Source: an uncultured archaeon A07HR67 (GTDB lineage Archaea > Halobacteriota > Halobacteria > Halobacteriales > Haloferacaceae). From it: a stretch of DNA of 32,428 nucleotides. The translations under genes and the position numbers were made by a program. Each line of letters begins with the position of its first letter. Position 1 is the first letter of the stretch. Location: NCBI GenBank assembly GCA_000496175.1, contig KI543169.1, positions 230,391 to 262,818 of the forward strand. The letters are read 5' to 3'. This document shows, piece after piece, positions 15,941 through 22,453 of the stretch. The notes below the pieces were generated by a model. That model worked only from the letters and a program-made list of their open reading frames with translations. It made no database searches and was not told the DNA's origin.

Positions 15941-17305
15941 TCACTCGTCGGCCGACACGCGCCGACCGCCCGCCCCTTCGCCGTCGTCGCTCGTCCGGTC
16001 GGGCTCGTGGAGCAGACACGCCGACTCGTGACCCGAGCCGTGTTCGATCCGTTCTGGCGCGGTCTCCTCACAGGGAGTGGTGAACGCCTCGGAGAAGGTG
16101 TCGGCGGCCGCCTCGAACTCGCCGTTCACGATCTGGTCTAACCCCCGACTGAGCGTTCGCTCTGCCGTCTCGGACGCGACCTCGGACGGGATGTCGAAGT
16201 CCGCTCGGATCCGCGCTTTCACCGCGGCGTCGGTGACGTCCGTCTCCGAGTCGGCGGCCAACCGCTCGCGAATCCCGGCGACGTCGACCGCCCCGGACTC
16301 GGCGGTCGCACGCAGGTTCAACAGCCCGCGCCAGGCGGACTGATCGATGTCGAGTTCCGCCGGCTGGATCACCCGATGACAACGCGTGTGGAACCGACAG
16401 CCGCTCGGCGGGTCCGACGGACTCGGAACTGTCCCCTCCAGTTCGATCCCACCGGGGCTCGCCCGCGGGTCCGGCGTCGGGATCGACGACAACAACGCCT
16501 CCGTGTACGGGTGCTTCGGGTCGCTGAACACCCGCGACACCGGGCCGATCTCGACGATCTCGCCGAGATACATCACTGCGACCCGGTCACACACCTCACG
16601 AATGACCGACATGTCGTGGCTGATCAACAACAACGACAGGTCGAACGCCGACTGGAGCTCGTCGAGCAGCCCGAGAATCTCGGCTTTGATCGAGACGTCG
16701 AGCGCCGAGACGGGCTCGTCGGCGATCACGAGATCGGGGTTCAGTACCAGCGCTCTCGCCAGGGCGATCCGTTGTTTCTGTCCGCCGGAGAACTCGTGAG
16801 GGTACCGGTCGGCGTCGGACGCAGAGAGCCCGACACGGTCGAGCAAGTCCTCGACGATCGCCCGTCGTCGGTCGCGGTCGTCCATCCCCTGAACCCGTAA
16901 CGGCTCGGCGATCGCGTCACCGATCGTCATCCGGGGGTCGAAACTTGACGACGGGTCCTGAAACACCATCTGGACTCCGCGACGGAACGCTTCGAGTTCG
17001 CGGTCGTCGAACCGCGTGACGTCGTTCGGGTGCGTTCCATCCGCGTTCCGTGTCGCTCCTCCCCGACCGTTTCCGTTGAAGATCACCTCGCCGCCGGTCG
17101 GCTCCTCCAGCCGAACGATCGAGCTTGCGGCCGTCGACTTGCCGCAACCGGACTCGCCGACGAGCCCCAGCGTTTCGCCGCGTTCGACCTCGAAGCTGAT
17201 CCCGTCGACGGCGCGGGTCACCCCGACCTGCCGTCTGAACAACCCCTCCGTTATCGGGTAGTGTTTCTCCAGGTCGCGAACGCTCATCAACGGCTCTTCA
17301 CTCAT
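15941..17305 (-). CDS. Peptide ABC transporter ATP-binding protein, OppF/DppF type
   Basis: This 454-residue ATPase powers solute import with the OppD-type partner. Seen are Walker A GESGCGKST (50-58), the Q-loop in VFQDPSSSFDP (114-123), the ABC signature FSGGQKQR (172-179), Walker B VIADEP (193-198) and the H-loop SHD (229-231). The opp-family C-terminal motif GCRFHTRC (302-309) is present, but the second pair of cysteines (Cys412, Cys430) is about 100 residues further on, not about 10-30 as in the partner. The insertion (about 312-410) is helical and acidic. Four such cysteines are reported to hold an iron-sulfur cluster in some Opp/Dpp ATPases. It is last in the operon, overlapping the oppD stop by 8 nt. 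Confidence 0.92.
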   Translation of the reverse strand: MSEEPLMSVRDLEKHYPITEGLFRRQVGVTRAVDGISFEVERGETLGLVGESGCGKSTAASSIVRLEEPTGGEVIFNGNGRGGATRNADGTHPNDVTRFDDRELEAFRRGVQMVFQDPSSSFDPRMTIGDAIAEPLRVQGMDDRDRRRAIVEDLLDRVGLSASDADRYPHEFSGGQKQRIALARALVLNPDLVIADEPVSALDVSIKAEILGLLDELQSAFDLSLLLISHDMSVIREVCDRVAVMYLGEIVEIGPVSRVFSDPKHPYTEALLSSIPTPDPRASPGGIELEGTVPSPSDPPSGCRFHTRCHRVIQPAELDIDQSAWRGLLNLRATAESGAVDVAGIRERLAADSETDVTDAAVKARIRADFDIPSEVASETAERTLSRGLDQIVNGEFEAAADTFSEAFTTPCEETAPERIEHGSGHESACLLHEPDRTSDDGEGAGGRRVSADE

Positions 17306-18350
17306 CCTCGGGACTCACCCCGCCGGCCGCCGGTTGCTCCTCGCGTGAACCGTCCCGAAGAACCGACCGGTCCATATCGCTGCGGTAGTGGACACAGGAG
17401 GCGTGTTGTCCCGGATTCACGGCGTGTTCTGCCGGCTGGCCGCCGGTACGACACGCCTCGACAGCGTGTGAACACCGAGGGGCGAACCGACACCCAGCCG
17501 GCGGGTCGTGTGGATCCGGCAGGGTTCCGGGAATCCCTCCCTTGCGACTCCCGCCCACCTCCGGGATACACTCCAACAACCGTCGGGTGTACGGGTGAGC
17601 CGGGCGTTCGAAGATGTCGAGCACGTCTCCCCGTTCCATCACCTTGCCCGCGTACATCACCACGATCCGGTCGGCGATCTGTGCCACCACCCCGAGGTCG
17701 TGTGTGACGAAGAGCACTCCCATGTCGAACTCCGACTGGAGCTCGTCGAGCAGCGATAGAATCTGTGCCTGGACCGTGACGTCGAGCGCCGTCGTCGGCT
17801 CGTCGGCGATGAGCAGGTCCGGGTCGCCGACGAGCGCCATCGCGATCATGGCGCGTTGTTTCTGCCCGCCGGAAAGCTGGTGGGGGTACTCCTCGAACCG
17901 CGCGCTCGGATTCGCGATTCCGACTCGGTCGAGAAGGTCTATCGCTCGCCCGCGAGCCTCCGCGTCGGGAACGTCCTCGTGGATCTGAAGCGCCTCTACG
18001 ATCTGCCACCCGACGGTGTAACAGTGGTTCATCGCCTCCTGTGGGTTCTGAAACACGTGTGCGATGTCGTACCCACGGATCGTTCTGAGCTCCGGCTCCG
18101 GCATCTCGAGGAGGTCACGCCCTCGATACCGCACCGAGCCCTCGATGCGGCCCGGCGGCGAACCGATGAGCCGCGTGATCGATTCCGTCGCGACGGTCTT
18201 TCCCGACCCCGACTCGCCGACGAGACAGACCGTCTCGCCCGCCTCGACGGTGAAGTCGATCCCGTCGACCGCGACGAGCTCTCCCTCGTCGGTGTCGAAC
18301 GCCGTCGTGAGCCCCTCGACCGCCAGAAGCGGCGACGCGTCGTCGGTCAT
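17298..18350 (-). CDS. Peptide ABC transporter ATP-binding protein, OppD/DppD type
   Basis: This 350-residue ATPase is the second motor subunit of the importer. Motifs are Walker A GESGSGKT (45-52), the Q-loop HVFQNPQEAMNH, signature LSGGQKQR, Walker B LLIADEPTTALD and H-loop THD. The C-terminal cluster GCRFAPRCSHAVEAC plus a final Cys in HASCVHY has the normal compact spacing, in contrast to OppF. The start at 18350 (MTDDASPLL) gives a 4-nt ATGA overlap with the upstream permease gene; the open frame runs to 18461, but the extra residues are an out-of-frame reading of oppC. Confidence 0.93.
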   Translation of the reverse strand: MTDDASPLLAVEGLTTAFDTDEGELVAVDGIDFTVEAGETVCLVGESGSGKTVATESITRLIGSPPGRIEGSVRYRGRDLLEMPEPELRTIRGYDIAHVFQNPQEAMNHCYTVGWQIVEALQIHEDVPDAEARGRAIDLLDRVGIANPSARFEEYPHQLSGGQKQRAMIAMALVGDPDLLIADEPTTALDVTVQAQILSLLDELQSEFDMGVLFVTHDLGVVAQIADRIVVMYAGKVMERGDVLDIFERPAHPYTRRLLECIPEVGGSRKGGIPGTLPDPHDPPAGCRFAPRCSHAVEACRTGGQPAEHAVNPGQHASCVHYRSDMDRSVLRDGSREEQPAAGGVSPEDE

Positions 18351-19531
18351 TCGTTCTCCGCCTCCGCTTCCGGGTTCAACGCGTCCAACAACGCGTCGCC
18401 GAGGAAGTTGAACGCCAGAATGGTGAGAAACAACACGACCCCCGGCGCGAGAACGATCCACGGCGCAAACGAGAGGTCACTCCGGCCGGCGGAGATGAGC
18501 TGCCCCCACGAGGGGACCGCCGAGTCGCCCAGCCCGAGAAACGCGAGCTGTGCCTCCGCGAGGAGAAAGCCCGGAACGAGAAGCGTGAGCTGCGTGATGA
18601 TGCTACTCGCCGTGTTCGGCACGACGTGGCGTCTCACGACCTGAGCGGTGGTCGCGCCGGTGAGCCGGCCCGCCTTGACGTACTCGGCCTCCGAGACGGA
18701 CAACGACTTGCTCCGGACGTAGCGGGCGGTGCCGCCCCAGGCGAAAAGCGAGAAGACGAGAATGAACATGCCAAGTCCCGCCCCGTAGATGTACAGGATG
18801 AGAAGAAACATCAGAAGCGTCGGAAACGAGAGCACGACGTCGACGAACCGCATCAGGGTCTCGTCGACCCAGCCGCCCGCGTACGCGCTCACCGTCCCGA
18901 CCGAGACGCCGATCGCCGCGACGATGGTCGTCGTGATGAACGCGATCTGCATGCTGATCGTCATGCCGTAGACGATGCTCGCGAAGACGTCTTTTCCGCC
19001 TTGGGTGGTTCCGAGCGGGTGTTGGAGGGTTCCCTGACACCGCCCGCCGACGACGTCGCCGACACACGTCGCCACGTTTGCGGCGTCGATGGAGAGAAAG
19101 ACCGGCGGCTGGTGGCCGGTGAGAACGCTCTGTTCGGGCGCACTCACCACGAGCGGGCCGAAGAGTCCGCCGACGAAGACGACGCCGAGCCATCCCAGGC
19201 TGACGACCGCCGGGCGGTTGCGCTTGAACTGCCGCCAGTAGTACCGCGTCATGCGAGGGTTCTGGTACAACGGCGCGACCACGTAGAAGGCGAACAACAC
19301 CAGCGTGAACCCAAAGAGGTAATCGATCCCCTCGAGGTTCCACTCCGTTCCGAGAAACGCGAACGTCGCCGTTCGTTCCCCGAGCACCTGCCAGTCGTAG
19401 ATCCCGAGCAGGGCGAGCGGCAGCGTACAGAACACGACGCCCAGCGTGTTTTTCGACGGCTCGAACCACCGCGACTGCGATATCTCGTCCCACTCTACCT
19501 CGTCGAACCGGTCAGATCGTTGCGTTCCCAT
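18347..19531 (-). CDS. Peptide ABC transporter permease, OppC/DppC type, N-terminally extended
   Basis: This 394-residue permease has the conserved core: a first core helix (about 108-128), a large extracytoplasmic loop, five further helices and the cytoplasmic EAA loop (EAEYVKAGRLTGATTAQVV, 281-299) that contacts the ATPases. It is about 90 residues longer than usual. The extension carries two additional hydrophobic segments (about 29-46 and 70-87) before the usual YYWRQFKRNRPAVVSLGW start. The extracytoplasmic loop contains Cys156 and Cys165, which could form a disulfide. It is transcribed between oppB (6-nt gap) and oppD (4-nt overlap). Confidence 0.9.
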   Translation of the reverse strand: MGTQRSDRFDEVEWDEISQSRWFEPSKNTLGVVFCTLPLALLGIYDWQVLGERTATFAFLGTEWNLEGIDYLFGFTLVLFAFYVVAPLYQNPRMTRYYWRQFKRNRPAVVSLGWLGVVFVGGLFGPLVVSAPEQSVLTGHQPPVFLSIDAANVATCVGDVVGGRCQGTLQHPLGTTQGGKDVFASIVYGMTISMQIAFITTTIVAAIGVSVGTVSAYAGGWVDETLMRFVDVVLSFPTLLMFLLILYIYGAGLGMFILVFSLFAWGGTARYVRSKSLSVSEAEYVKAGRLTGATTAQVVRRHVVPNTASSIITQLTLLVPGFLLAEAQLAFLGLGDSAVPSWGQLISAGRSDLSFAPWIVLAPGVVLFLTILAFNFLGDALLDALNPEAEAENE

Positions 19532-19537
19532 CTGTGT

Positions 19538-20512
19538 TCACCTGTCGTCGTAGCTGATCCGCGGGTCCAACACGGTGAACACGAGGTCCTCGATGAGGTT
19601 CCCCACCACGGCGACGAAGGTGAACGCCAGCGTCGACCCCAACACGAGGTTCGTGTCCTGTGCGATGAGCGCGTTGTACGTCACGCGTCCGAGCCCCGGA
19701 ATGCCGAACACCACCTCCACGAGCAACGACGACCCGAGGAACAACGCCAACAGCTGTCCGACGAGCGTCGTCGACAACGGCACCAGCGTCGGACGCATGA
19801 CGTGATAGGCGTACGCGCGAAGCGGCGAGACGCCCTTCGCCTTCGCTGTCTTCATGAAGTCGGCGTGTTGGAACTCGGCGGACTCGTTGCGCGACACCCG
19901 CATGACGGCGCCGATCGATCCCGTGACCAACACGAAGACGGGGATCGACAGCTGGATCGCGTTCGCGAGGCTGAACACCGGCACGCTCGTGTCGTAGACG
20001 ACCGGAATCACCTCGAGCCAGACCCCGAACATCAACAACAGGATGATCCCGAAAAAGAAGTTGGGGATGGCGTATCCGAAGAACGCGAACCCGGTCGCGA
20101 GATGGTCCTTCCAGCTGTACATGTTCGCGGCCGAGTACACGCCCACGAGCGGCCCGAGCAGGATCGTCAGGATCGTCCACGGCACGGAGTACTGGGCGGT
20201 GTAGTACAACCCTTCGGCCAGCGCCGTCGTCACGGGCTGGCTCCGGCTGTCGGCCCAGCCCCAGTCGAGCGTGTAGATGCTCTGGAGGTAATCCATGTAC
20301 CGCACGTGAATCGGCTCGTCGAGCCCCCGGAGTTCGCGGGCACGTTCGGCCGCCTCGGCCGGATCGCCGCCCTGAAGCGCCGCCTGCGTCGCCGCCCGCT
20401 GGATCTCTGGGTTCGGAGCGGCTGCGAGGAGCAGAAACGTGATCGTGACGATGATCAACGAGACGACCGCGGCCCACATCACGCGAGCGGTGACGTACGT
20501 TCCGAATCCCAT
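19538..20512 (-). CDS. Peptide ABC transporter permease, OppB/DppB type
   Basis: This 324-residue permease has a first helix at about 10-30 (RVMWAAVVSLIIVTITFLLL), a long external loop containing LRGLDEPIHVRYMDYLQSIYTLDWGW, as is typical of OppB, five further helices, and the EAA loop around ADFMKTAKAKGVSPLRAYAY. It ends with the family sequence NLIEDLVFTVLDPRISY. It forms the membrane channel with OppC. It sits 36 nt after the binding-protein gene and 6 nt before oppC, so it is in the same operon. Confidence 0.93.
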   Translation of the reverse strand: MGFGTYVTARVMWAAVVSLIIVTITFLLLAAAPNPEIQRAATQAALQGGDPAEAAERARELRGLDEPIHVRYMDYLQSIYTLDWGWADSRSQPVTTALAEGLYYTAQYSVPWTILTILLGPLVGVYSAANMYSWKDHLATGFAFFGYAIPNFFFGIILLLMFGVWLEVIPVVYDTSVPVFSLANAIQLSIPVFVLVTGSIGAVMRVSRNESAEFQHADFMKTAKAKGVSPLRAYAYHVMRPTLVPLSTTLVGQLLALFLGSSLLVEVVFGIPGLGRVTYNALIAQDTNLVLGSTLAFTFVAVVGNLIEDLVFTVLDPRISYDDR

Positions 20513-20548: not shown

Positions 20549-22423
20549 CTACTCTTCGCCTGGATAAAACTCCGACCAGCGGGGCTGCCAGGTGAAGTGC
20601 GCGTCGGCGAGCCCTCGGTAAACCCCCTGAATGAGGTCGTCTTTGCCGATCGCCGCCGCCAGCGCCTGGCGGAACGCCGTGATCTGGAACAGGTTTCCCG
20701 GCCCGGTTTGCCACCCGTTGGCGCGCTGATTCACCGAGAGAATACGGTTGTACGGGGTGGGTATCTCACGGACGGTCACGTCTTCGTTCTCCTCGTACGA
20801 TTGGAACTGTTCGGGCGGAATGCCTGCTGCGTCCGCTTCTCCGGTTTCGAGCGCTCCGAGCCGCGACGCCTGTTCTTCCACGACGCTGATCGACGCCTCC
20901 TCGAAGAACGGCCCGTCGGCGAACCGGTCCGGCCCCTCGTCGACCTCCTGGAGATAGTACTCGTCGTTGCGGGTGTACGTCGTTCCGGCGCCGCGGTTCC
21001 ACTCGTCGAGCGTGAAGGCTCCGAGGTTTCCGGTGAACGATAACTCGAGCAGCTCCTGGTCCTGTTGTAATCCCTCGACGTCTTCGGACTCGACGTACGG
21101 CTCGAGGAGGTCACGCGGGATCGGGTACAACAACGGGTCGTACGACTGCGGCCACAACAACGCCGGCGTGTCCAGCGTCGCCTGAAAGGTGAACTCGCCG
21201 GTCTGTTCGACCTCGACGCCCTCCCAACTCGACGCGGAGACGGTGTTCGCCCAGTCGCTCTGGTGGATCTCCTGAACGAGGTAGACGAAGTCCGCCGCGG
21301 TGACCTGTCCGTACGGATCGCTGAACGTGAGGTTCTCCCGGAGTTCGAACGTCCAGACCTCCCCGTTCTCCGTGGACATGTCGTACAACAACGGGAAGTA
21401 CTCCTGATCGTCGTCGAAGGTGTACCCTTGGTCGAGAACGCGACCGATCGCCGTTCCGGCGCCCGCCTCCGTGTTGTACAACGGGTTCAGCGTCGAGAAC
21501 CCGGCCGCGCTGACCGTGTCGTACGAGCCGGAGACGGTCGGATCGCCGGCGTACCACGCCGGGAAGTCCCAGCCGTTCGAGAAGTTCTCGCTCGGCCCGT
21601 TCAGCTCCGGATTGTAGCCGACGAGGTCGTCGCCGAGAACGAGCATGACGTACGGCTGCTCGCGGGCGAGATTCTCGAATATCTCGACGAACGCCTCGCG
21701 GAGCTCGTCCCGGCTCGTCGCCTGGCGTGCCGTCTCGAAGAGACCCGTCGCGTCGAACTCGGGATAGTAGCCGACGGGGTTGTACACCGTGTTCGCGCCG
21801 TCGAAGAACACCTCGTTCGTGAGCGGGTTGAGCGGGTACGTGTTCAGCCCGAACACGACTGACATGTCCCACGCCTCGTTGCTCGTCACCGACTGCGGAC
21901 CGGGGTTCTGTGGCGTCGGCTGCGCCCACTCGACCTCCTCGCCGTTGACCGTGTCGGTGCCGCCTGCCGGCTCGGCGGTCCAGTACTCGTTGTTGAACCG
22001 AGTGCCGTCGATCGCCTCGACCGAGACGACGATGCCGAGGTTTTCCTGGAGCTCTTGGCCGATGTACTCGGCCACGAGTTGGGAGGTCTCCTGTCCGGCC
22101 GAGTGGTAGATGTCGAGTTCGACCTGGTCGCCTTCCGGCGTCACCATGTCGCCGCCGTCGAAGCCGTAGTCGTGGTCCGATTCTTCGAAGGCTCTCCGGG
22201 CGAGGGTGCGCGCGACCGTCTCGCCGTACAGGTCGTCGACGCCGAACCGCGGGAACGCCCCGATTGTGACGTCGTCGCCCTCGCTGTCTGCGGTGCCTTC
22301 CTCGTTTTCCTCTCCTGAGCAGCCGGCGAGCGCCGAGAGGCCGGTGACTCCGAGCGCGGAGAGCCACCGTCGCCGGCTGACTCGTCGGCTGGTTTCACTC
22401 CCTGCCGTGGGCCGCCGTGACAT
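20549..22423 (-). CDS. Tat lipoprotein substrate-binding protein with swapped SBP_bac_5 halves
   Basis: This 624-residue protein begins with a twin-arginine signal (SRRRWLSALG) and lipobox ALAGC with Cys35, so it is a membrane-anchored extracellular receptor for the OppBCDF importer. Family 5 binding proteins normally run from an N-terminal half (STLNPL-type opening, VWTFELRENLTFSD, TLDEWNRG-type lobe, AFRQALAAAI) to a C-terminal half (domain closure, DELREAFVEIFENLAREQPYV). Here the C-terminal half comes first (about 55-290) and the N-terminal half second (about 298-624), ending just after the usual midpoint at FYPGEE. This suggests a circular permutation, with the old termini joined near residues 285-300 (about 21530-21570). 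The open frame is intact, with a promoter and a normal start. The ligand is probably a peptide or similar solute. Confidence 0.88.
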   Translation of the reverse strand: MSRRPTAGSETSRRVSRRRWLSALGVTGLSALAGCSGEENEEGTADSEGDDVTIGAFPRFGVDDLYGETVARTLARRAFEESDHDYGFDGGDMVTPEGDQVELDIYHSAGQETSQLVAEYIGQELQENLGIVVSVEAIDGTRFNNEYWTAEPAGGTDTVNGEEVEWAQPTPQNPGPQSVTSNEAWDMSVVFGLNTYPLNPLTNEVFFDGANTVYNPVGYYPEFDATGLFETARQATSRDELREAFVEIFENLAREQPYVMLVLGDDLVGYNPELNGPSENFSNGWDFPAWYAGDPTVSGSYDTVSAAGFSTLNPLYNTEAGAGTAIGRVLDQGYTFDDDQEYFPLLYDMSTENGEVWTFELRENLTFSDPYGQVTAADFVYLVQEIHQSDWANTVSASSWEGVEVEQTGEFTFQATLDTPALLWPQSYDPLLYPIPRDLLEPYVESEDVEGLQQDQELLELSFTGNLGAFTLDEWNRGAGTTYTRNDEYYLQEVDEGPDRFADGPFFEEASISVVEEQASRLGALETGEADAAGIPPEQFQSYEENEDVTVREIPTPYNRILSVNQRANGWQTGPGNLFQITAFRQALAAAIGKDDLIQGVYRGLADAHFTWQPRWSEFYPGEE

Positions 22424-22446: not shown

Positions 22447-22453
22447 ATATAAA
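22447..22453 (-). promoter_or_regulatory. TATA box of the ABC transporter operon
   Basis: TTTATAT on the minus strand, 24-30 nt upstream of the ATG at 22423, is the only clear promoter of the five-gene operon. Confidence 0.6.

Follow-up and report, generated by a model that had tools for sequence, protein, structure and literature searches.

A circularly permuted SBP_bac_5 substrate-binding lipoprotein in Halorubrum, with canonical orthologues at the same locus

Introduction

Binding proteins of the SBP_bac_5 family (PF00496), among them OppA, DppA, AppA and NikA, belong to structural cluster C. The protein described here is encoded in a 32,428-nucleotide stretch of contig KI543169.1 from the uncultured archaeon A07HR67 (the window). 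It shares with this family homology in both halves, Tat/lipoprotein export and an operon that also encodes Opp/Dpp-type permeases and ATPases, and differs from it in that the chain opens in the usual C-terminal half and a short linker joins the old termini. A binding protein with such a topology has been described in TpMglB-2 (Tp0684), a circularly permuted glucose-binding lipoprotein of cluster B, for which the terms 'Cluster Bc' and 'Type Ic' were proposed and whose authors suggested membrane tethering as the cause of the topology (PMC4990184). The two cases agree in being natural circularly permuted ABC binding lipoproteins: both halves are homologous to one unpermuted family, stand in swapped order and have the new termini inside the old chain. 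TpMglB-2 is a sugar-binding protein of cluster B, whereas our protein matches PF00496, a different family. The passages on which we draw concern one treponeme/Gram-positive family and do not mention a canonical orthologue at the same locus (PMC4990184); the SBP_bac_5 permutation, in contrast, recurs in cluster C, including alphaproteobacterial forms that look non-lipidated. In the literature searched, which was largely open-access, TpMglB-2 was the only natural permutation of a binding protein, and no prior report of a permuted SBP_bac_5 protein was found.

A second system for comparison is an old permuted clade within SBP_bac_5 itself, exemplified by WP_013385786 of Ketogulonicigenium vulgare. 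Its C-half also comes first and is accompanied by adjoining permease and ATPase genes, but the clade has a separate origin, a breakpoint lying about 35 residues further and about 24% identity to our protein over the matched part.

Results

The gene and its operon

The ORF listing gave a minus-strand frame of 644 open codons, in which the ATG at 22423 and the stop at 20549 delimit a protein of 624 amino acids. A sequence-only reading had proposed this ORF, which is real at 20549-22423, without stating that it lies on the minus strand; the plus strand of the interval is interrupted by stops. The features are as follows.

22448..22453, minus strand: TTTATA, TATA-box-like, its first base 30 nt from the ATG (from the sequence)
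20549..22423, minus strand: permuted SBP_bac_5 substrate-binding lipoprotein gene, 624 aa (ORF; PF00496, AppA and half-profile matches)
22319..22423, minus strand: Tat signal (SRRRWLSALG) and lipobox (LAGC, Cys35) (translation)
21551..22261, minus strand: residues 55-291, ancestral C-terminal half, now leading (profile match to AppA 421-501; alignment to the C-halves of canonical L049-L051)
21533..21550, minus strand: residues 292-297 (AGDPTV), joint between the old C-terminus (PAWY) and the old N-terminal linker ((P)xVSGSYDTV) (junction comparison)
20552..21532, minus strand: residues 298-624, ancestral N-terminal half, now trailing, with the end FYPGEE (PF00496 13-251; PDB chains 44-331 and similar)
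19538..20512, minus strand: oppB-like permease, retained downstream in most relatives (ORF; named by context and the relatives' annotation)
18347..19531, minus strand: oppC-like permease (ORF and relatives' loci)
17298..18350, minus strand: oppD-like ATPase, start set at ATG 18350 (ORF and relatives' loci)
15941..17305, minus strand: oppF-like ATPase (ORF and relatives' loci)

The protein thus has both an export signal and the genes of an Opp/Dpp-type importer beside it. The translation confirmed the lipobox cysteine at residue 35, and the lipobox pattern was found again in almost all relatives looked at. The proposed limits of the two halves (55-290 and 298-624), their joint near residues 285-300 and the oppBCDF genes after the binding-protein gene held up as well. 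TTTATA 30 nt before the ATG is what we take to be the leaderless haloarchaeal promoter pattern. A scan for sigma-70 promoters and terminators, which is of the bacterial type and ill-suited to archaea, returned no match.

The order of the two halves is reversed

PF00496, the only Pfam family found in the protein, matched it in two stretches (E 4e-41) with a score of 141.7 bits against a gathering cut-off of 32.4. The best stretch aligned residues 351-617 to positions 13-251 of the 368-position profile, so that the start of the profile falls toward the end of the protein. The chain is therefore not collinear with PF00496 from N to C but reversed, and we class it as a permuted homologue of SBP_bac_5, not an ordinary member of the family. 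For comparison, the canonical relative L049 gave one collinear match (residues 53-434 to profile 11-353). The proposed profile check thus gave two stretches, with the profile start near the protein's end, and no single collinear match. Residues 53-292 searched alone against PF00496 gave no match, because the model scarcely covers that half.

Comparison with known structures led to the same result. In a phmmer search against AppA (1xoc), residues 292-613 aligned to chain positions 15-312 and residues 193-268 to 421-493, again in reversed order. A profile of the first half matched AppA 421-501 (E 4e-5), and one of the second half matched 6npo 44-331 (E 4e-10), 8efz 25-290 and many more chains near their N-termini. 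The halves of canonical orthologues aligned readily to the protein once they were swapped. AlphaFold models, built from shallow alignments, were equally poor for the permuted (A1, mean pLDDT 38) and the canonical order (A2, 39) and are therefore uninformative on the permutation.

Permuted and canonical orthologues share one locus

The permuted form is present in 19 of 52 genomes of the genus, which its named members identify as Halorubrum. All 19, that of the window included, align with the permuted query over a long collinear stretch, with 68-91% identity in the other 18; named carriers include H. lipolyticum DSM 21995, H. salsamenti, H. saccharovorum DSM 1137 and H. sodomense RD 26. When the two halves were searched separately, the C-half preceded the N-half within one open frame at 18 distinct Halorubrum loci. 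In 15 of the 52 genomes the halves were matched separately, or a single half was matched (about 48-70% identity; 48-69% over the N-half); the genes fetched from these genomes were canonical, save the frame-broken one of G006, and G401, which was left unfetched, had an N-half match only. The canonical orthologue of G006 (L079) is broken into two open frames with internal stops. The remaining 18 genomes had no match at E 1e-60, and both forms occurred together in none of the 52. The survey of haloarchaeal homologues suggested earlier thus found both orders, the permuted one being common in haloarchaea. Places joined from tblastn matches cannot by themselves establish the order of the halves: genes of Halocatena, Haloarcula JP-L23 and Natrononativus (L115) looked full-length in this way and were canonical on inspection, as were the candidates from Cytobacillus and Meiothermus.

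Both forms of the gene are found at one locus, with dapA...dapF-NYN on one side and oppBCDF on the other. A divergent NYN gene adjoins the binding-protein gene in permuted L043-L047, L053, L054 and L059-L062 and in canonical L069, L074-L077 and L089; in most loci the dapA-dapD-lysA-dapF cluster lies past it and oppBCDF follows the binding-protein gene. Since both forms share this position, the Halorubrum permutation most likely arose in place in the operon, from a canonical orthologue. A second genus presents the same picture, with permuted L063 (genome G300) and canonical L064 (G220) in the same operon, including genes further downstream. The oppBCDF genes are absent downstream of permuted L045, L047, L060, L061 and L062 and of canonical L089, in all of which the binding-protein frame is open; judging by the tree, they were probably lost at least twice among permuted genes and once in a canonical line. 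At these six loci the binding-protein gene stands alone ahead of convergent downstream genes.

Further permuted genes occur outside this locus. The genome of the window (G000) has two or three more SBP_bac_5 genes that are permuted by their order: C2 (L004/L012), C4 (L009/L011; truncated by the contig end) and C10 (L007; split by a frameshift). One on C14 (L003), masked upstream, is consistent with the permuted order; canonical genes lie on C12, C15 and C14. Of 97 haloarchaeal genomes, 24 contained relatives detected with a permuted query from the old clade; almost all of them matched over about 500 residues or more, in permuted order. Members of this clade (L116, L118 and L124 from Alphaproteobacteria; L119, L123, L125 and L126 from haloarchaea) are annotated just as 'ABC transporter substrate-binding protein'.

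The breakpoints differ and retain relics of the old termini

In the clade of the window protein the chain ends in FYPGEE or FYPGDE and restarts at about FPxFGVxDLYG, where canonical orthologues have FYPGDEAISTFGTGDLYG or FYPPEEEIPQFGVGENYG; scarcely any domain residue is lost at the cut. Canonical C-termini read AWYFDE or AWHFDE and canonical N-terminal linkers TPSVSGTYDTV. The joint of L044, AWHFEDPSVSGSYDTV, runs from such a C-terminus (AWHFDE) into such a linker (TPSVSGTYDTV). The permuted gene of the second genus (L063:7419-9308), which belongs to another family (f3, g37) and comes from a single draft genome, was cut about 36 residues beyond this point, past a helix, and its joint holds a long internal linker, TEAGGADESAGLPEDIEEPPAVEGSYNS, akin to the linker that follows the lipobox in L064. 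The divergent permuted group (L093-L107) and the old clade were cut near the position of L063. The breakpoints thus differ between events.

The permutation arose several times

For the trees, permuted proteins were rewritten to canonical order beforehand, and the permuted label was fixed ahead of tree building. On the tree of 71 rows this label requires four changes, and branches with strong support force at least three of them; a single change sufficed on none of the 200 bootstrap trees. The clade of the window protein (support 100/99) has canonical outgroups on all sides, and L063 is the sister of canonical L064 (100/99). Each half alone recovered the window's clade (99 and 97) as well as L063 with L064. 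The sister group of the window's clade has moderate support on both halves (96/92), and the N-half alone weakly disagrees with it. AU tests rejected the union of the window's clade with L063 (p 8e-4), of L063 with L093-L107 (p 4e-11) and of the window's clade with L093-L107 (p 3e-64); these p-values are somewhat post hoc, since the split into three groups was drawn after the first tree and the breakpoints. We conclude that at least three independent reorderings among haloarchaeal homologues are forced.

In a tree of 47 rows that included bacteria, five changes were required, at least four of them forced, and the older permuted clade (97/89) united K. vulgare, Nitratireductor, Maritalea and haloarchaeal genes, one of them on C2 of the window's genome. 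This clade, common to alphaproteobacteria and haloarchaea, is a fourth origin; its deep placement is less sure, as long branches weaken confidence there. What had been read as a single odd gene is thus one of several independently permuted lineages.

Alternative explanations

The genome of the window is a draft of 16 contigs, 82% complete, so an ordinary gene might have been scrambled by misassembly or in a chimaeric contig. Order and junction are identical in 19 Halorubrum genomes, several of them of named strains, and the permuted genes lie mid-way in large contigs; the independent assemblies have already refuted this explanation, whose probability we consider practically nil. Fusion of half-genes from two SBP paralogues is conceivable in a genome with several SBP_bac_5 genes, and the N-half and C-half trees do differ, weakly, in where they place the clade. 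Yet each half matches the same canonical orthologues, which share the locus, at about 60-72% identity, and no well supported conflict was seen; since each half separately supports the clade, the protein is no hybrid of two paralogues, and we regard such a fusion as extremely unlikely.

A single ancient permutation, with the canonical order regained afterwards, would account for the wide spread of permuted genes in haloarchaea, their presence in alphaproteobacteria and the similar breakpoint in G300 and the divergent group. It is very unlikely: the AU tests and the bootstrap trees speak against it, the Halorubrum and G300 events differ in breakpoints and linkers, and a return to the exact original termini by re-permutation is implausible. 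It is also quite unlikely that the permuted protein has lost its function and that its frame has stayed open by chance. The five permuted relatives lacking oppBCDF fit this explanation, as do the higher dN/dS values (0.20-0.35) of the measured pairs that involve relatives without these genes, and those five may be drifting. In the window and most relatives, however, the transporter genes are intact, and frames with signal and lipobox are open throughout the clade. There, rough NG86 estimates of dN/dS were low, at 0.11-0.19 for permuted pairs with the transporter and 0.07-0.15 for canonical Halorubrum pairs, and the similarity of these ranges shows that purifying selection acts on both forms to a similar degree. 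For the species of the window, the earlier remark that the gene looks functional therefore holds.

Proposed mechanism and function

The junction relics fit tandem duplication followed by fusion and trimming, as had been suggested, and we infer this route from them. The gene would have been duplicated in tandem, the C-terminus of the first copy fused to the post-lipobox linker of the second, the N-half of the first copy deleted behind its signal, and a stop would have arisen where the N-half of the second copy ends. Duplication is reportedly a general route to circular permutation. No duplication intermediate was found among the loci compared. A Phyllobacterium plasmid (L122) carries four consecutive peptide-binding SBP genes, a tandem SBP duplication of the kind that the proposed route requires as raw material. 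In G191, two N-half matches lie 7.6 kb apart on the same strand, an arrangement that suggests an operon of this family duplicated in tandem.

Because the cut points leave almost all domain residues in place, the two-lobed fold and its binding cleft should persist. In OppA and DppA structures the old termini are neighbours in the first lobe, the cut points being in the other, so the lipid anchor would have crossed over to the other lobe. Canonical haloarchaeal orthologues examined have lipoboxes and none is visible in the sequence of the K. vulgare protein; tethering alone is therefore insufficient to explain the topology. The operon and the family point to a predicted importer of the peptide type with a peptide-like solute as ligand.

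To summarize, the window very probably encodes a circularly permuted SBP_bac_5 lipoprotein of structural cluster C that is exported by Tat, anchored at Cys35, arose in place and most likely feeds OppBCDF. The permutation itself, as first read from the window alone, is borne out in three ways: by the sequence, by its recurrence in independent genomes and by the canonical orthologues that share the locus.

Discussion

Permutation probably recurs in SBP_bac_5, with at least four origins, of which two are so recent that a congener has the unpermuted orthologue in the same operon, and with a preference for a cut region early in the ancestral C-half. Family searches that presuppose the collinear order will split or under-score such proteins. 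As a rule, natural circular permutations are inferred by comparing distant relatives. In Halorubrum, permuted and unpermuted orthologues that are about 65-70% identical occur at one locus within a single genus, and independent events that were cut at different points can be compared. If this reading is true, these genes would form an unusually clear natural series on protein permutation and on the effect of placing the anchor on the other lobe.
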